59,818 nucleotides of DNA from Allosalinactinospora lopnorensis (lineage in GTDB: Bacteria > Actinomycetota > Actinomycetes > Streptosporangiales > Streptosporangiaceae): the NCBI RefSeq assembly GCF_000981225.1, contig NZ_LAJC01000031.1:1-59818 (forward strand), read 5' to 3'. The notes under the pieces were generated by a model that did not search any database, had not been told where the DNA came from, and saw nothing but the letters and a program-made list of their open reading frames with translations. Below, in pieces: positions 9,726-59,818 of the stretch; within the stretch, counting starts at the first letter, position 1, and every line of letters begins with the position of its first letter. A program made the translations under genes and the position numbers.

Positions 9726-10314
9726 CGTGTCCTCCTGCGGTAACGAGCCTGGCACCGGTTGCCAGGTTCCGATTGTCGCGACAGTGAATCCCGGTCACAC
9801 GGTGCACGTGGTGAGGGAACTGTCGTAACTAGTCACGATATCCGTAACCATGCGCCGGATACCGATGTATTGTGCCTGATGCCGTCCATTGTCGCTCCTC
9901 AGTGGGTATACCCGACGGTCATGCCCGATGGGCGGGGCATGGGCCGCAGCGCCGCACCGGCTGTCTGGAACCGTTTTGGACAGCCGATATGCAGGGACGT
10001 CGACCGGGGCAACCGACCTGACGACGACCAATGACGACCAATATGGCACTATCAGGTCGTTTGGCAAAGGCGTGCGGGGGGCGCGGTGATCGAATGGTGA
10101 TGAAATGACCGGATCACCAGGGGATAGGGCCGCGCCGAAGAGGTGAGCGGCGGCCGACCGGTTCTCCCGGACCGCCGGACGACCAGCGGCGAAGGGAGAT
10201 GCCGCGGTGCGGTCGCACGCCCCTTCCCGGCATCGGTAGGCTCTTCCGGGGACCTGCTGTCATGGCGGTCCTTCCCGCGCCCGTCCCGATACGGAATCGA
10301 GGTCAGCTCGCACC
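9726..10314. other. 589-bp gene-free interval between the DUF349 gene and the MBL hydrolase
   Basis: I find no convincing gene on either strand: the short open frames lack codon bias and ribosome-binding sites. It contains two GACGACCAAT copies near 10021-10040 and must hold the divergent promoters for DUF349 and the hydrolase. In many actinobacteria a peptidyl-prolyl isomerase gene (ppiB) lies at this position; I see no remnant of one. Confidence 0.6.
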
Positions 10315-10998
10315 GTGCTCATCGCCGCTTTTCCCGCCGGACCGCTCGCCGCGAACTGCTATGTGGCCGCTCCGGAGGCGGGCGCGGAGTGCGTTGTCGT
10401 CGATCCCGGACAGGACGCCGCCCAGGGGGTGGCGGAACTGCTGGGGGAGCACGATCTCACGCTCTCGGCGGTGCTGCTCACGCACGGCCACTTCGACCAC
10501 GTCTGGTCCGCCACGGAGCTGTCCGAGACCTACGGCGTGCCCGTGTGCGTCCATCCCGGGGATCGGGCGCTGCTCACAGACCCCGCCAAAGGGCTCGATC
10601 CCGGTCTGGCCGGGCAACTGTCCGCGCTGCTGGGCGAGGTCGACATGGTCGAACCGCCCCGACTGGAGGAGCTCGCCGGCGGGGAGAAGCTGTCCTACGC
10701 CGGGCTGGAGTTCGCGGTGGAGCACGTGCCGGGGCATACGCCCGGTTCGGTCGCCTACGCGCTGGCCGCGGGGGAGGACCATCCCCAGGTGCTGTTCACC
10801 GGCGATCTGCTGTTCGCCGGATCGATCGGCCGCACCGACTTCCCCGGCGGCGACCACCCCGCCATCCTGCGCAGCCTGGAACAGGTCTGCCGCGACCACC
10901 CCGACGACACCGCGGTCCTTCCCGGCCATGGGCCGCAGACCACCATTGGCCGCGAGCGCGCCGACAACCCGTTCCTGAGGGAGACCCCGGACCGTTGA
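10315..10998 (+). CDS. MBL-fold metallo-hydrolase (glyoxalase II-like)
   Basis: A 227-aa zinc hydrolase of the metallo-beta-lactamase fold. The metal motif THGHFDH is at 56-62, and further ligands are His141 (HVPGHTPGSV), Asp164 (FTGDLLF) and His205 (LPGHGP). This matches the hydroxyacylglutathione-hydrolase-like subgroup found beside rel and hisS in actinobacteria, such as the Rv2581c type. The physiological substrate is unknown; a thioester hydrolase role is suggested by the family. Start: GTG 10315. It is followed by aspS after 269 bases, with no hisS between them. Confidence 0.88.
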   Translation: MLIAAFPAGPLAANCYVAAPEAGAECVVVDPGQDAAQGVAELLGEHDLTLSAVLLTHGHFDHVWSATELSETYGVPVCVHPGDRALLTDPAKGLDPGLAGQLSALLGEVDMVEPPRLEELAGGEKLSYAGLEFAVEHVPGHTPGSVAYALAAGEDHPQVLFTGDLLFAGSIGRTDFPGGDHPAILRSLEQVCRDHPDDTAVLPGHGPQTTIGRERADNPFLRETPDR

Positions 10999-30492: not shown

Positions 30493-31611
30493 ATGTCTGC
30501 ACCGAATAGTTCCTATGACCCGGTCGAGGTGACCCCCTTGCAGCCGGACGAGGTCGCCCGGATGCGGGAGGAGGCCCTCGCAGCCATCGCCGCGGCCGAT
30601 TCCCTGGAGAAGCTCAAAGAGGTCCGGATCGCGCACGCTGGTGACCGTTCGCCGCTGGCCCTGGCCAACCGGGAGATCGGCGCGCTCCCTCCGTCGGCCA
30701 GGGCCGAGGCGGGCAAGCGGGTCGGCGGCGCCCGGCGCGACGTCGCCGAAGCGCTCAAAGAGCGCCAGACGGTCCTGGAGGAGGAGCGTGACAACCGCGT
30801 CCTCGTCGAGGAGGCGGTCGACGTCACGCTGCCCTGGGACCGCGTCCCGCGGGGGGCGCGGCACCCGCTGACGACCGTCGCCGAGCGCATGACCGACATC
30901 TTCGTCGGCATGGGGTTCGAGGTGGCCGAGGGCCCTGAGACCGAGGCCGAATGGTTCAACTTCGACGCGCTGAACTTCCTCCCGGACCATCCGGCCCGCA
31001 CGATGCAGGACACGTTCTTCCTGGAGGCCCCCTCCGGGGGCGAGTCCGGCCTGGTGCTGCGTACGCACACCTCGCCGGTGCAGATCCGCGCGCTGCTCGA
31101 CCGGGAGCCCCCGGTCTATGTGGTGGCGCCGGGCAAGACCTTCCGCACCGACGAACTGGACGCCACGCACAGCCCGGTCTTCCACCAGCTGGAGGGACTG
31201 GTGGTGGACGAGGGCATCACCATGGCGCATCTGCGCGGTGCGATCGACGCCTTCGTGCACGGCATGTTCGGCGCGGACCTGCGGACCCGCTTCCGGCCGT
31301 CCTACTTCCCCTTCACCGAGCCGTCGGCCGAGGTGGACATGGAATGTTTCGTCTGCCGCGGCGCCTCGGTGGGCGACCCGGACGCCCCGTGCCGGACCTG
31401 CGGGTCCGAGGGGTGGATCGAGATCGGCGGCTGCGGTGTGGTGAATCCGCGTGTTCTCACCGCCGCCGGTGTGGACACCGGCCGCTACAGCGGCTGGGCG
31501 TTCGGCCTCGGCGTGGAGCGGACCCTGATGTTCGCCCACGGAGTGGAGGACATGCACGACATGGTCGAGGGCGACATCCGGTTCACCTCGGCGTTCGGGA
31601 TGGAGATCTGA
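30493..31611 (+). CDS. pheS: Phenylalanyl-tRNA synthetase alpha subunit
   Basis: A 372-aa catalytic subunit that forms an alpha2-beta2 enzyme with PheT. An N-terminal coiled coil (about 15-95) binds tRNA. Class II motifs follow: [41 protein letters not shown] (motif 2) and [13 protein letters not shown] (motif 3). A CxxC...CxxC pair (CFVCRG, CRTCGSE at about 286-306) could bind zinc, a trait of some bacterial PheS. Start ATG 30493. It ends in a TGATG overlap with pheT. Confidence 0.97.
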
Positions 31612-34136
31612 TGCGCGTCCCTGTTTCCTGGCTCCGGGAGTACGTTGACCTGCCGGTCGACGTCACAGGTCGGGGCCTCGCCGCCAGGTTGATCGACGCC
31701 GGCCTGGAGGTCGAGACCGTCGACGAGGCGGGGGCCGACATCACGGGCCCGGTCGTGCTCGGACGGGTCCTCGCCATCGAGGAGCTCAGCGAGTTCAAGA
31801 AGCCCATCCGCTACTGCCGAGTGGACGTCGGCACGGCCAACGGAACCGGCGAGCCGCAGGGAATCGTCTGCGGCGCTCGGAACTTCGCCGAGGGCGACCT
31901 GGTGGTGGTTGCGCTGCCCGGGGCCGAACTCTCCGGCGGCTTCGCGATCGGCTCCCGCACGACCTACGGCAGACTCTCCGAGGGGATGATCTGCTCGGCG
32001 ACGGAGCTGGGGCTGTGGGAGGACCACGAAGGCATCGTGGTGCTGCCCGAAGGCACCGGCCAGCCCGGTGCGGAGGCCGTCGGCCTGCTCGGCCTGCGCG
32101 AGGAGGTCCTCGATATCGCGGTCACCCCGGATCGCGGCTACGCGCTGTCGATGCGCGGTGTGGCCCGCGACGCCGCCGCTGTGTACGGGGTGGGGTTCCG
32201 CGATCCGGCGGAGGTCGCGGCCATCGGTACTCCCGGTGCGGGATACCCGGCGACGGTGGCCGACCCGGAGATCTGCTCGCGCTACGTGCTCCACGGTGTC
32301 TCCGGCTTCGACCCCGATGCCGCGACCCCGCTGTGGATGAAGCGCCGCCTGGCCCTGACCGGCGTCCGCCCCATCTCGCTGGCGGTCGACGTCACCAACT
32401 ACGTGATGATGGAGCTCGGCCAGCCGCTGCACGCGTGGGACCGCGGCAAGCTGCGCGGGCCGATCGAGGTCCGGTTGGCCCGCAAGGGCGAGAAGCTGGA
32501 GACGCTGGACCACGTCAAGCGCACGCTGGACCCGGACGACATCCTGATCACGGACGAATCGGGTCCCATCAACATCGCCGGGGTCATGGGCGGCCTCGAA
32601 ACCGAGATCGACATGACCACCATCGATGTGGTCATCGAGGCCGCGCATTTCACCGCCACGCACATCGCGCGCGCATCGCGGCGGCACCAGCTCTCCTCGG
32701 AGTCCTCGCGCCGTTTCGAGCGCGGCGTCGACACCGAGTTGCAGGTCGCCGCCGCCACGCGCGCGGTCGCGCTGCTGGCCGAGTTCGGCGGTGCGGTCGT
32801 CGACGGCGGGTACACCCACGTCGACCTCAGTACGGCCCGGGAGTCCATCGCCATCGACGCGGACCACCCGGCCCGCGTGGCGGGGGCGGACTACCCCGCG
32901 GGAACCTCGGCCCGCTGGCTCCGGGAGGTCGGGTGCGAGGTTACCGAGGAGGCCTCCGGTGAGACGCTTCGGGTCACCCCGCCGCAGTGGCGCCCCGATC
33001 TCACCGACCCGAACGATCTCGCCGAGGAGGTCATCCGGCTTGAGGGGTACGGGGCCATCCCCTCGGTCCCGCCGCGCGCACCGGCGGGCCGCGGGCTCAC
33101 GGACAGCCAGCGGACGCGGCGAGCGGTGGGGCGCGCGCTCGCGGGAGCGGGCTTCGTCGAGGTGCTCAGCTATCCGTTCCTCGGCGAGCGGGACTTCGAC
33201 GGTCTGCAGCTGGCAGCCGGCGACCAGCGGCGCAGCACGCTGAAGCTGGCCAACCCGCTCAACGACGACGAGCCGCTGCTGCGGACGACGCTGCTGCCGG
33301 GACTGCTGAGGACGCTCGTCCGCAACGTCGGCCGGGGGTTCTCCGACGTAGCCCTCTTCGAGATGGGACTGGTTTACCTGCCCAAGCCGGACGCCCCGGA
33401 GCATGCGCCGATGCCGCCGGTGGACCGCGGCCCCACCGCGGAGGAGCTCGCCGCTCTGGAGGCCGCCGTCCCGCACCAGCCGCGCCGGGTGGCGGCTGTG
33501 CTGGCCGGCGACCGGGAACCCGCCGGCTGGTGGGGCAGGGGGCGCCCGGCGATCTGGGCCGATGCCATCGAGGCCGCGCGCGAGGTGGGGCGGGCCGCCG
33601 GAGTGGAATTGGCGGTCCAGGCCGATCAGCGCGCTCCGTGGCATCCCGGACGCTGCGCCGCGCTGTATGTTGTCAACAACGTTGTTGACAACATGGATGG
33701 TGGCGCGTCCAGGACTCTCGTCGGACACGCCGGTGAGCTGCATCCGAGGGTCATCCAGGCGTACGGGCTGCCGGCCCGCACCGTCGCGATGGAGGTCGAG
33801 CTCGACCAGCTCGAAGAGGCGCGTTCCGGCCTCCGCGCGCCCGAGGTCTCCACCTACCCTGTGGCGGCCCAGGACGTGGCCCTGGTGGTCGAGGAGTCGG
33901 TGCCCTCGGGCGAGGTCGAGCAGGCCCTCCGGGCCGGGGCCGGCGAGCTGCTGGAAAGCCTCCGGCTGTTCGATGTCTACACCGGAGAGCAGGTGGGCGG
34001 GGGGCGCAAGTCCCTTGCCTACAACCTGCGCTTCCGGGCGGGCGACCGGACATTGACGGTCGAGGAGACCACTGCCGCGCGTGATGCGGCGGTCGCCGCC
34101 GCGGCCGAGCGTACCGGGGCGGTCCTCCGCGGCTAG
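31611..34136 (+). CDS. pheT: Phenylalanyl-tRNA synthetase beta subunit, with palindrome-encoded insertion
   Basis: An 841-aa beta subunit. An EMAP/OB tRNA-binding domain (about 40-155; [20 protein letters not shown]) leads to B3/B4 editing, the B5 region ([20 protein letters not shown] is within B3/B4), a degenerate synthetase core and the C-terminal ferredoxin-like anticodon domain (about 745-841, [16 protein letters not shown]). ATG 31611 overlaps the pheS stop. At residues 686-695 the DNA is a perfect 28-bp AT-rich palindrome encoding VVNNVVDNM between GRCAALY and [15 protein letters not shown]. Related PheT proteins go almost directly from the GRCA stretch to VGHAGELHP, so about ten residues look inserted. 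The frame is intact. Confidence 0.96.
33667..33694. repeat. Perfect 28-bp palindrome inside pheT
   Basis: ATGTTGTCAACAAC (33667-33680) followed by its exact reverse complement (33681-33694), with no loop. It is about 36 percent GC in a gene near 70 percent GC. It may be a regulator operator or a small palindromic element that entered the gene in frame. Confidence 0.85.
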
Positions 34137-52884: not shown

Positions 52885-52930
52885 CACACAGGTGAGGCGG
52901 CCCCGGACCCGGGGCCGCCTCACCTGTGTG
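52885..52930 (+). terminator. 20-bp perfect hairpin terminator
   Basis: The arm from CACACAGGTGAGGCGG (52885-52904) pairs perfectly with 52911-52930 around GGACCC. It begins 12 bases after the chelatase-like gene's stop. Confidence 0.85.
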
Positions 52931-55134: not shown

Positions 55135-55674
55135 TGGAGGAGCGCACGAGAAGCCGGACGGGGCATCCCGCGAGACGCCCCGCGCGCGGACGGCGGAGCC
55201 GTTGAGGGCGGTGGAGGGCGACGGGCCGGAGGGTTTGCGGCGCGCAGCGTCTCCGTTGAGGGCGGTGGAGGGCGACGGGCCGGAGGGTTTGCGGCGCGCA
55301 GCGTCTCCGTTGAGGGCGGTGGAGGGCGACGGGCCGGGAAGCTGCTCCGCCCCTTCGCCGTCCAGATCGGGGACGAGGGAGAGAAGGGTGTTGCTCCCCT
55401 CCCAGAGCTGGAGCTGACGAGCCTGGTGACCGCCGCCCGCTCTCCGGAACCCCGGGACGTCCTGCGGCCGGAGCGGGAGAAGATCCTCGACCGTGCGCGC
55501 CGCCCGCACACCGTCGTCGAGCTCGCCGCCCACCTGGAACTGCCGATGAGCGTGACGAGGCTGCTCGCCTCCCGGATGGTCGCCGAGGGCGCCCTCGTGT
55601 TGTGCGTCCCCTCGAACGAGCCCAGCGAGGACGATCTCCTGCAGGCGGTCCTGACCGGGCTCCGTTCCCTGTGA
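55127..55674 (+). pseudogene. DUF742 gene (CvnC-like) interrupted by a frameshift and a 54-bp tandem repeat
   Basis: The ATG at 55127 follows GGAGGTGG by eight bases and overlaps the kinase stop. It reads MGSGGAHEKPDGASRE, then repeats of PLRAVEGDGPEGLRRAAS. At about 55335 the frame is lost: the DUF742 domain (LLRPFAVQIGDE, ELELTSLVTAARS, LAAHLELPMSVTRLLASRMV, DLLQAVLTGLRSL) continues in the next frame to 55674. That second frame has no usable start codon before GTG 55426. Adding one G in CCGGGAAG would restore GDGPGKLLRPF and one continuous gene. So it is a one-base deletion, a sequencing error, or programmed frameshifting. Confidence 0.75.
55201..55337 (+). repeat. 54-bp tandem repeat, two and a half copies
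   Basis: Units begin GTTGAGGGCGGTGGAGGGCG at 55201, 55255 and 55309; the first two are identical over 54 bp, and the third runs only about 28 bp. The unit length keeps frame and encodes an 18-residue repeat in the first frame of the broken DUF742 gene. Confidence 0.95.
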
Positions 55675-56958: not shown

Positions 56959-56999
56959 GCGCACCGGCGCGCGGGCGGAACGCCCGCGCGCCGGTGCGC
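56959..56999. terminator. Bidirectional 19-bp hairpin between lhgO and the HNH gene
   Basis: GCGCACCGGCGCGCGGGCG (56959-56977), GAA loop, exact complement (56981-56999), placed in the 79-base gap between convergent genes. Confidence 0.85.
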
Positions 57000-57010
57000 C
57001 CGTCAGAGGG

Positions 57011-57655
57011 TCAGCAGGTGGAGTCGAGAAGCTCCTCCAGTTCCCCCTCCTCCGCGGGATCGATGGTGAGGTCCCATTCGTATTTCACGTTGATCCAGCT
57101 CCTCGTGTAGTCGCAGTGGATGCCGGTCTCGGTCGGCATCCACTCGGAGGGGTCCTTGTCGCCTTTGGAGCTGTTGCTGGACGGGCTCACCGCCCACAAC
57201 TGGGGGGTGTCGAGATCGTTGGCGAATTCCTCGCGCTGACTGGTGGACCAATCGCCGGCACCGGAGTCCCAGGCCTCCTTCAGCGGGACGAAATGGTCGA
57301 CGCTGGCCTGTGAGGGATCGTCGGTGACCTCACCGTCGAACGGGCTGGTCCAGGAGCCGGATGTGGGGTAGCAGTTGCCTCCCACCTCGACATTGTCGCC
57401 GTCGCGCTGCAGCACCATTTCGCGTGCGTTGCAGTTGCCCTCGACCGCCGACCAGTGGGGGAAGAGGTCGCGGCTGTAGCCGGGGACGTCCTCTTCGGAC
57501 GCCACGGTGAGACTGTCGAGCTGCGATCGGGCCTCCGCGAGGCTCGGCGGTGGGGGAGGGGCGGCCTGGACGGGGGAGGCCGAGCCCACCAACAGGGCGA
57601 ACATCCCCAATCCGGCGGTCGACGCACCGGCGAGACGGCGGGTGGTCACTGGCAT
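57011..57655 (-). CDS. Secreted HNH endonuclease family protein (DUF1524-like)
   Basis: A 214-aa exported protein. A signal peptide with RR near the start (MPVTTRRLAGASTAGLGM) and a hydrophobic core ends at VQA-AP near residue 31. The mature part carries the HNH-family signature: VDHFVPLKEAWDSGA (119-133, catalytic His121), NSSKGDKDPSEWMP (161-174) and CDYTRSWINVKYEW. Four Cys (75, 95, 181, 214) could form two disulfides. Such proteins are common extracellular nucleases of actinomycetes, used for nutrient recovery or competition. Start ATG 57655 with GGAGA upstream. A 40-bp palindrome lies about 90 bases upstream. Confidence 0.9.
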   Translation of the reverse strand: MPVTTRRLAGASTAGLGMFALLVGSASPVQAAPPPPPSLAEARSQLDSLTVASEEDVPGYSRDLFPHWSAVEGNCNAREMVLQRDGDNVEVGGNCYPTSGSWTSPFDGEVTDDPSQASVDHFVPLKEAWDSGAGDWSTSQREEFANDLDTPQLWAVSPSSNSSKGDKDPSEWMPTETGIHCDYTRSWINVKYEWDLTIDPAEEGELEELLDSTC

Positions 57656-57976
57656 ATGAGTCTCCAAGCAGAGCGGGTGCTTTCGGACTCTCCGAGAGTC
57701 GCCCACGCTTCGAGAGCGGGGGAATATGGGGCGGGTTAACAATTGATGACCGTCTCTGGCCGGATCCGGCCAGAGACGGTCATCCGGTGGAGCGCGGGGG
57801 CGGGCCGGCTTGGCGCATCCGGGGCCGGCGTTCCTGCGTACGGCGGGGAATCGGTGCGACACCGATCCGGGGCAGCGGATACCGTAGAGAAGGTTCAGCC
57901 GGTGAGCCGGATGTACCGAGGCCCCGGCGAGTCGCCGGACGGATCAGTCAGTAGTTCTCCCTACGGAAAGACCACA
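57656..57976. other. Divergent region between the HNH nuclease gene and tyrS
   Basis: Dominated by the 40-bp palindrome at 57745-57784. No gene is supported, although frames stay open through it. GATACCGT near 57878 may be a -10 box for tyrS. Confidence 0.45.
57745..57784. repeat. Perfect 40-bp palindrome
   Basis: The 20-base arm GATGACCGTCTCTGGCCGGA (57745-57764) is followed at once by its exact reverse complement (57765-57784), with no loop. It lies between two divergent genes, where a terminator for either is not expected. Confidence 0.9.
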
Positions 57977-59278
57977 GTGCCCGACATCATCGACGACCTC
58001 GAATGGCGAGGCCTCCTCTCGCAGACCACGGACCTTGATGAACTCCGCAAGGCACTCGCCGATGGCCCGGTCACCCTCTATTGCGGCTTCGATCCCACCG
58101 CGGGGAGCCTGCACGTAGGCCACCTCACCCAGATCCTGACGCTGGCGCGCTTCCAGCACGCCGGGCATCGCCCGATCGCGCTGGTCGGCGGCGGGACCGG
58201 TCTTATCGGCGATCCCAAGCCCGCCGCGGAGCGCGCGCTGAACTCGGCGGAGACCGTCGAGGAGTGGGGCCGGGTCCTCGGCCGCCAGCTCTCGGCGTTT
58301 CTGCGCTTCACTCCTGGAGGCGAGCGGCCAGGCCCGACGGACGCCATTCTCGACAACAACGCCGAATGGCTTGCCGCTATGAGCGCCATCGAGTTGCTGC
58401 GCGATGTCGGAAAGCACTTCAGCGTCAACCAGATGCTCGCCCGCGAGACGGTGAGGAGCCGGCTCGACGGCGAGGGAATGAGTTACACCGAGTTCAGCTA
58501 CGTGCTCCTGCAGGCGTACGACTTCGTCGAGCTCTACCGGCGGCACGGCTGCACACTGCAGATCGGCGGCAGCGACCAGTGGGGCAACATCACAGCAGGA
58601 CTCGACCTGATCCGCCGAATGGACGGGAACGCCCCGCACGGCCCGGCGCACTGCCTGACCACGAACCTGCTCACCAGGAGCGACGGGACGAAGTTCGGCA
58701 AGACCGAGACGGGCAGCGTGTGGCTCGATCCCGAACTGACCACGCCCTACGCCTTCTACCAGTTCTGGTTCAACGCCAACGACCGGGACATCGTCCGTTT
58801 CCTCAAGGTCTTCAGCTTCCGCTCCAAGGATGAGATCGAGGCCCTGGAGCGGCAGACCGAGGAACGTCCGGCCGCCCGGGCCGCCCAACGGGCGCTGGCG
58901 GAGGAACTGACCACGCTGGTGCACGGCGAGGAGGAGTGCCGCAAGGTCGTGGAGGCCAGCCGTGCCCTGTTCGGCCAGGCGGACCTGGGAGACCTCGACG
59001 CCGGCACGCTCAGCGCCGCGCTGGCGGAGGTACCGAAAGCGGAGTTGGCGGGCCCCGTCGACGAGCTGCCGCCAGTGGTCGACCTGCTCGCGGCCACCGG
59101 GCTGGTTCCGAGCAAGTCGGCGGCGCGCCGGGCGATCCAGGAGGGTGGCGCCTACCTGAACAACACGAAGGTCAGCGACGTCGAGGCCCGGGCGTCCGGG
59201 GAGGATCTGCTGCACGGGCGCTATCTTGTGCTGCGGCGAGGCAAGCGCAACATAGGTGGTGTCATCGTCACTGCGTAG
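57977..59278 (+). CDS. tyrS: Tyrosyl-tRNA synthetase
   Basis: A 433-aa class I synthetase of the bacterial TyrRS type. CGFDPTAGSLHVGHL holds the HIGH motif (HVGH 46-49), the KMSKS loop is KFGKT (SDGTKFGKTETGS), and QIGGSDQWGNI and the Tyr-binding YDFVELY are present. The C-terminal S4-like domain is SKSAARRAIQEGGAYLNNTK. Start GTG 57977 with GGAAAG seven bases upstream. No T-box was seen before it. A hairpin terminator follows at 59296. In mycobacteria tyrS is followed by an rRNA operon, which the promoter array downstream here also suggests. Confidence 0.96.
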   Translation: MPDIIDDLEWRGLLSQTTDLDELRKALADGPVTLYCGFDPTAGSLHVGHLTQILTLARFQHAGHRPIALVGGGTGLIGDPKPAAERALNSAETVEEWGRVLGRQLSAFLRFTPGGERPGPTDAILDNNAEWLAAMSAIELLRDVGKHFSVNQMLARETVRSRLDGEGMSYTEFSYVLLQAYDFVELYRRHGCTLQIGGSDQWGNITAGLDLIRRMDGNAPHGPAHCLTTNLLTRSDGTKFGKTETGSVWLDPELTTPYAFYQFWFNANDRDIVRFLKVFSFRSKDEIEALERQTEERPAARAAQRALAEELTTLVHGEEECRKVVEASRALFGQADLGDLDAGTLSAALAEVPKAELAGPVDELPPVVDLLAATGLVPSKSAARRAIQEGGAYLNNTKVSDVEARASGEDLLHGRYLVLRRGKRNIGGVIVTA

Positions 59279-59295
59279 CCGCGGCGGAGATTCCC

Positions 59296-59327
59296 GGTGC
59301 CCGCCCGGGAGCCGCAGGGCGGGCACC
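59296..59327 (+). terminator. Hairpin terminator after tyrS
   Basis: GGTGCCCGCCC (59296-59306) pairs with GGGCGGGCACC (59317-59327) around a 10-base loop, 17 bases after the tyrS stop. Confidence 0.75.
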
Positions 59328-59555
59328 ACGGCTCCAAAGGACGACGCGGGGCGAGAGGTCTCGTACGCTGCCGCGGATTCGTGTCCCCGAGCGTGTTTAA
59401 GCCGCATACCAGAGGGGCAGGTACACCCTTGCGAACGGAAGCTTGACGTACCGTACGGGTGTGGTGCGCGCCCGCGCGAGGTCAGGAGGCCAAGACCTGC
59501 GGAGCAGGCGCAACCGGCCAGTGGCTGGTGCAGACGCCGCGGAGTCCGGCCCGAT

Positions 59556-59584
59556 TTGACGCACCTGAACGTGGAACCTATCGT
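59556..59584 (+). promoter_or_regulatory. Promoter P1: TTGACG, 17 bp, TATCGT
   Basis: -35 TTGACG (59556-59561) and -10 TATCGT (59579-59584) at ideal spacing: a near-consensus housekeeping sigma promoter. Confidence 0.6.
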
Positions 59585-59680
59585 TATCCAGTCGGTGCGG
59601 GCTGGCGAGTGACTCAGAGGAACTCGAAACCGGACCGCACATCACCCCGAAGGTTACTGACCTGGGCGGCTGTCCGGGAC

Positions 59681-59689
59681 TGGTAATCT
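59681..59689 (+). promoter_or_regulatory. Promoter P2: extended -10 TGG-TAATCT
   Basis: TAATCT (59684-59689) with a TG one base upstream, an extended -10. The -35 is weak (CTGACC at 59657-59662, 21 bp away). Confidence 0.4.
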
Positions 59690-59761
59690 GGAATCTCGCG
59701 GTTCTCCTCCCGTGGGACTTTCGAGGGATTGGCTCGCCGAAACTTTTTCGGGAATGCCGAT

Positions 59762-59790
59762 TTGGCGCTCTCGGAGGGGATTGGTAAGCT
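59762..59790 (+). promoter_or_regulatory. Promoter P3: TTGGCG, 17 bp, TAAGCT
   Basis: -35 TTGGCG (59762-59767), 17-bp spacer, -10 TAAGCT (59785-59790) with an extended TGG. Only 28 bases remain before the window edge. Confidence 0.55.
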
Positions 59791-59818
59791 AAATGGAGAA
59801 ACCGTAAAAACGGTGACG

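Follow-up and report, generated by a model that had tools for sequence, protein, structure and literature searches.

The window analyzed here, a stretch of 59,818 nucleotides from Allosalinactinospora lopnorensis, carries between two outward-facing genes a run of 40 bases that is its own exact reverse complement (40/40 bp with a loop of 0, as computed on the window), and this raises the question of what such a structure might do at a place where neither neighbor ends. The mirror symmetry stops at 40 bp with unmirrored flanks, and given the base composition of the window (pairing probability of 0.288; p^20 x 59,818) a loopless palindrome of this size is expected by chance ca. 9e-7 times (about 1e-6) per window. 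The initial annotation had described a perfect 40-bp loopless palindrome between divergent genes and ruled it out as a terminator of its neighbors, and we confirmed both points, as the self-complementarity is exact and the two genes point away from it (Table 1). Located upstream of both genes, it is separated from the start of the HNH gene by 89 bp and from tyrS by 192 bp. With a probability of just under one half, we favor the reading that it is a lineage-specific, single-copy hairpin of the I-shaped terminator type that owes its origin or its perfect form to template switching and would serve as a two-way insulator between promoters; the palindrome itself appears ordinary in kind, unusual in place, and probably young.

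Table 1. Features at and around the palindrome and at the pheT locus, in positions of the window.
Feature	Position	Strand or setting	Basis or remark
HNH/GmrSD_C-type protein gene, 214 aa	57011-57655	-	Pfam PF07510 GmrSD_C, E=7.7e-10; ATG at 57655
tyrS, tyrosine--tRNA ligase	57977-59278	+	Pfam PF00579, E=1.3e-79, and S4/SYY C-terminal domains
Perfect 40-bp loopless palindrome	57745-57784	either strand	exact self-complementarity; folds
Putative tyrS promoter, GCGACA - 18 - TACCGT	57856-57885	+	promoter role suggested by conservation
Putative HNH promoter and leader region	57690-57744	-	adjoins left edge of palindrome; role putative
Hairpin, 19-bp stem, 3-nt loop	56959-56999	convergent LhgO-like(+)/HNH(-) spacer	terminator-like
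pheT	31611-34136	+	hosts 28-bp palindrome

The leftward neighbor carries a GmrSD_C domain, a family that we take to be of the HNH type, and its product is probably secreted, judging from a signal peptide read by eye at the N-terminus; the closest HNH proteins in named genomes are those of Streptomonospora and Nocardiopsis. On the other side, all eight aligned relatives share with the window the motif ATAC(C/G)GT ahead of tyrS, and we read TACCGT (57880-57885) as the probable -10 element of this gene. With the putative tyrS promoter to its right, the palindrome should be outside the tyrS mRNA. At its left edge, six of the eight aligned relatives show TGTT(C/T) on the minus strand, for which the window has TGTTA as counterpart (TTGTTA, 57737-57742), and the partly conserved block of 57690-57744 may represent a promoter of unusual type or else an operator. 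No TANNNT -10 was seen by eye on the minus strand of this block, and a sigma-70 consensus scan of 57600 to 58000 returned no site. Being located between two putative promoters, the palindrome would most likely be part of neither mRNA.

An operator, i.e., a dyad to which a regulator of the HNH gene binds, would be in line with the left edge directly adjoining the partly conserved block that precedes this gene, and also with a short and different dyad at about the same place in one relative (L081; TTCGGAT-N7-ATCCGAA). We nevertheless consider an operator improbable in view of the absence of a second site from the genome, of any common motif seen in the aligned HNH/tyrS spacers of eight relatives, and of regulators among the flanking genes. 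Moreover, perfect symmetry over 40 bp exceeds what a typical dimer site needs. By Pfam, a histidine-kinase-like and a DUF742 gene are located ca. 2 to 5 kb to the left, and the spacer between these two contains a tandem repeat of a 54-bp unit in 2.6 identical copies (55199-55337).

A palindrome of this size could also be the trace of a mobile or repeated element, and the initial annotation had listed a transposon scar and a fold-back element among its options. A 131-base query against the 5.89-Mb draft genome matched the palindrome locus and its own mirror only, and the genome-wide arm search that had been proposed as a check (19 bases with up to 3 mismatches) returned the two arms of the palindrome itself, compared to eight hits of a reversed-pattern control. 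The palindrome is single-copy in its genome, and its longest match to any other sampled hairpin is 11 bases long, which argues against a scar of either type; a dispersed repeat or transposon end, for which several related copies would be expected, is likewise not supported. We find it hardly credible that an assembly or sequencing artifact or a mobile-element scar created the palindrome: the assembly is indeed a draft of 220 contigs, but the palindrome is located away from the contig end, has unmirrored flanks beyond 40 bp, lacks any further genomic copy, and is matched by a homologous imperfect repeat in the relative G105 (see below).

As RNA, the palindrome is predicted to form a hairpin of 20 pairs with about -39 kcal/mol on either strand (-38.3 / -38.9; z of -5.2 / -4.3 compared to 30 versions of the spacer with shuffled mononucleotides), i.e., the stable, GC-rich hairpin clearly above chance that is typical of I-shaped terminators. 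The absence of a U-tract after the stem fits these terminators as well, with four T in the 10 flanking nucleotides on the minus side and one on the plus side, and a scan for U-tract terminators between 57600 and 58000 (at least 5 T in 8, loop of 3 to 8 required) gave no match. An Rfam scan of 57000 to 59818 returned just two matches with E values of 3.8 and 4.8, far under curated thresholds, the former being a hit of the palindrome to a microRNA model; neither T-boxes nor other riboswitches were found in this interval at E 5.

Termination by hairpins without a U-tract is disputed, with work by Ahmad in 2020 reportedly finding the U-tract dispensable for termination and work by Czyz in 2014 reportedly finding it required, as far as their titles tell. 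I-shaped terminators without poly-U are described in the accessible text of a mycobacterial review (PMC12288462), and that of a Term-seq study in Streptomyces clavuligerus lists 3' ends that are structured but have no U (353 of 535) in addition to bidirectional ends (PMC8269248). The palindrome resembles the I-shaped terminators of Mycobacterium and Streptomyces in its long GC-rich stem without U-tract, and it also resembles the hairpins behind genes in its own genome and in relatives. It differs from I-shaped terminators in its place between divergent genes instead of shortly behind a stop codon (both neighbors start at this spacer), in the lack of any loop, and in a terminating role that is predicted from its fold. 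Similarly, bidirectional terminators at convergent gene ends are symmetric and could act on both strands, as could the hairpin at 56959-56999 and the palindrome, but both neighbors of the latter run away from it so that the only RNA to reach it would be stray or antisense.

To learn how common such structures are, we surveyed perfect hairpins (arms of at least 13 bp, loops of at most 8) across 2,379,818 bases, comprising 1,259,818 from the own genome, 380,000 from the g7 relatives G105 and G006, 400,000 from G021, and 340,000 from G030; L164, a 12-kb stretch surrounding the locus in G105, was excluded. Genes were called with a simple custom caller based on codon usage. Among the 131 hairpins found, 67 are located between codirectional and 42 between convergent genes, while two are divergent, 16 intragenic (a class that depends on the caller), and four at the edge of a stretch. 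Loopless forms with arms of at least 15 bp account for 16 of these hairpins (nine codirectional, five convergent, one edge, one divergent), and the longest ones, with arms of up to 33 bp, all sit at convergent gene ends (66 bp in G105, 60 and 56 bp in the own genome). The longest of all, a perfect palindrome of 66 bp, spans 10288-10353 of the G105 locus L156.

Most codirectional hairpins have the end of the preceding gene nearer to them than the start of the following one (42/51; 23/26, 9/11, and 10/14), a figure that refers to the first 1.64 Mb, with G030 and the third own-genome sample outside the position, flank, and strand counts. For the 40 of these 51 that are at most 100 bp from the stop codon, the 10 nt after the stem contain on average 2.9 T on the sense side versus 2.0 on the other side. 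Hairpins at codirectional gene ends without a strong U-tract represent the pattern of I-shaped terminators known from mycobacteria and agree with the 3' ends without U in S. clavuligerus, and perfect loopless palindromes are a common gene-end, terminator-like form in this clade. A perfect loopless palindrome alone is therefore nothing exotic in these actinomycetes, and the initial argument that such a long one is unstable and hence either recent or selected is weakened, as this genome and its relatives contain further loopless palindromes with sizes of 44 to 66 bp. The available text of a survey of 118,019 genomes reports that bacterial perfect inverted repeats are strongly enriched behind genes, mostly with spacers of 4 to 5 bases (PMC13155455), which would make the loopless form the less usual one in general. 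Within the window, the longest perfect stem is a 22-bp one with a 2-nt loop located 13 bp behind a gene (52885-52930).

It is the place that sets the palindrome apart. Only two of 316 divergent spacers hold a hairpin of this survey, compared to ca. 30 of the 111 spacer hairpins expected there by spacer length (16.1 + 3.9 + 6.3 + 3.9), and for the own genome alone the palindrome is the one case observed versus 16.1 expected (binomial, 1.4e-7). The second case, at 1912-1955 of L194 in G030, depends on the gene caller, its right neighbor being a weakly scored call of 66 amino acids. A location in a divergent spacer is unusual for this clade, and the avoidance of such spacers by hairpins implies that its members do not routinely insulate divergent promoters in this way, which counts against an insulator.

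The gene order LhgO-like(+), HNH(-), tyrS(+) is found in several genera. We compared the best 16 of 29 relative loci (L077-L092), half of which (8/16) have a divergent tyrS within the flank, and thereby carried out the conservation check proposed with the initial annotation. None of these eight has a perfect inverted repeat in the HNH/tyrS spacer (arms above 8 bp, loops up to 12), and the palindrome lies outside the well-aligned blocks of this spacer. The suspected recency thus gains support, as a perfect form missing from all eight relatives with both HNH and tyrS in view looks young. Both observations likewise favor a neutral scar, i.e., a template-switch mutation in a little-constrained spacer with no selected role, which we regard as a serious possibility without preferring it. 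A scan of all 29 tyrS loci that ignored gene order (arms of at least 11 bp) detected a 12-bp stem upstream of tyrS in L020, where it is located behind a codirectional gene.

Among the relative loci examined, G105 (L077) encodes the closest HNH protein with 79% identity, and its spacer contains an imperfect repeat about the homologous center in which 12 of the first 17 positions are paired. Compared to the window, 11 of the 20 dyad positions are identical on both arms, and four further positions of L077 are A.C on the plus strand and thus G.U on the minus strand. The resulting fold (-30.7 kcal/mol, z of -2.5) is the most stable local one on the minus strand of this spacer. An operator-type dyad at the homologous center, which was examined in L077 and in the sister species G006 (L078), is imperfect in the former and absent from the latter, where no imperfect repeat was found at this center; for the other six relatives, perfect repeats and the best dyad anywhere in the spacer were listed. 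A pairing of 12/17 somewhere is reached by 53 of 1,000 shuffled L077 spacers and also by L078, L082, and L086 in their own spacers, so that the L077 repeat is suggestive and not firm. Based on the 11 shared positions, an imperfect repeat probably predates the perfect palindrome, which would suit a neutral scar. The same positions together with the four minus-strand G-U pairs of L077 hint at constraint, weakly so in light of the shuffles, and would, like the close match in form between the palindrome and resident gene-end hairpins, argue against such a scar.

In L077, the HNH-sense strand gives a more stable hairpin than the other one (-30.2 versus -18.3 kcal/mol), an asymmetry that would favor leftward RNA and would be expected of a leader hairpin, i.e., of an element for attenuation or stability within the long 5' UTR of an HNH mRNA started near the tyrS promoter. 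Such a start could be provided by the tyrS -10 element, which is symmetric in the window (TACCGTA) and could fire both ways; bidirectional promoters of E. coli with symmetric -10 elements are a precedent, according to the accessible text of PMC12825309. However, the last A that makes this element symmetric is missing from L077 and L078 (TACCGTG), no such palindrome accompanies the symmetric -10 of L080 and L087, and the partly conserved block between palindrome and HNH gene start suggests a promoter left of the palindrome. Strand asymmetry is also a weak guide: a calibration on 451 gene-end regions yielded 240 strong folds whose strands differ in energy, and the more stable strand was the sense one in 126 of these and in seven of the ten folds that differ by at least 8 kcal/mol between strands. 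We view a leader hairpin as very improbable, and an attempt to read the direction of transcription from the L077 G-U pairs or the strand asymmetry was dropped after this calibration.

The convergent spacer on the other side of the HNH gene, shared with a plus-strand neighbor that we presume to be LhgO-like (Pfam gives DAO), serves as an internal comparison. This spacer was given for 13 relatives, and in 10 of the 12 with an LhgO-like gene found it folds with -33.4 to -48.9 kcal/mol (unshuffled energies), including one strong fold in a spacer of 896 bp. As for the others, the fold of L092 reaches -30.1 kcal/mol, and L078, with a spacer of 14 bp, has none. Seven of the eight relatives with the divergent HNH/tyrS pair show the LhgO-like gene, and five of these reach -36 kcal/mol or lower. 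Judging from these folds, the hairpin at the LhgO-like/HNH gene end seems to be largely kept by position, whereas the palindrome is not. An insulator is harder to reconcile with a perfect form found in 0/8 relatives while the neighboring convergent hairpin is mostly kept.

With regard to the origin of the palindrome, the same 60-kb window holds a second loopless one, a perfect palindrome of 28 bp inside the coding sequence of pheT (33667-33694). Both g7 relatives (L221 and L223) have an identical left arm, ATGTTGTCAACAAC, but no right arm, and four other aligned relatives are shorter at this site with neither arm; the first set of pheT relatives comprised 11, including one g7 species. Compared to the g7 relatives, the pheT gene of the window has gained, in frame, the exact reverse complement of the adjacent 14 bases, and its net length differs from theirs by 9 and 12 bases. 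This is the pattern of fold-back template switching, with an ancestral left arm and a right arm that is a new copy. Each arm also resembles what we take to be a DnaA box (TTGTCAACA).

Through template switching, also known for quasi-palindrome mutations, stems may arise or become perfect in a single mutational event (PMC8794818; PMC7202029), and the pheT palindrome fits such products. For the palindrome between HNH and tyrS, in turn, the source arm is not assignable because its differences to L077 fall on both arms: counted from the center, positions 2, 8, and 10 differ on the left arm only, 15 and 18 on the right arm only, and 12, 16, 19, and 20 on both. Template switching on an older imperfect repeat would still be the simplest origin. 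The pheT palindrome, with its new second arm in a coding sequence where a terminator would make no sense, became established at a site where no terminator is wanted, which supports a neutral scar between HNH and tyrS and keeps this interpretation close behind the terminator-type hairpin.

Among the options initially offered, a terminator blocking antisense transcription is the one best supported, with a function that is presumed from the fold and the setting. Under this preferred reading of a two-way terminator-type hairpin, the 40-bp palindrome would have been created or perfected when template switching acted on an imperfect inverted repeat that was already present. Read-through or HNH-antisense RNA would enter it from the left, and divergent RNA from the tyrS promoter area with its symmetric -10 element would enter it from the right. 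In either direction, the RNA may form the 20-pair hairpin, upon which the polymerase would be stopped or the RNA trimmed, and the benefit, if any, would be that stray RNA is blocked and both HNH and tyrS are insulated.

If true, such a birth by template switching would mean that a single mutation can provide a ready-made two-way terminator, and if this origin were general, it would explain the rise and turnover of long perfect loopless stems and help to explain how GC-rich bacteria acquire I-shaped terminators. Among the papers listed in our literature searches, neither a title nor the beginning of an abstract connected template switching with how bacterial terminators are born; the word "terminator" is absent from the accessible text of PMC8794818 and occurs eight times in PMC7202029. 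The wider proposition that this lineage makes loopless palindromes noticeably often by template switching, that I-shaped terminators are born in this way, and that one of them was kept as an insulator seems doubtful to us. The tyrS side of the locus shows a further peculiarity, as the contig ends soon after this gene (59400-59818) and the tyrS match of several relatives is within ca. 2 kb of a contig end, for which a ribosomal RNA operon behind tyrS would fit.
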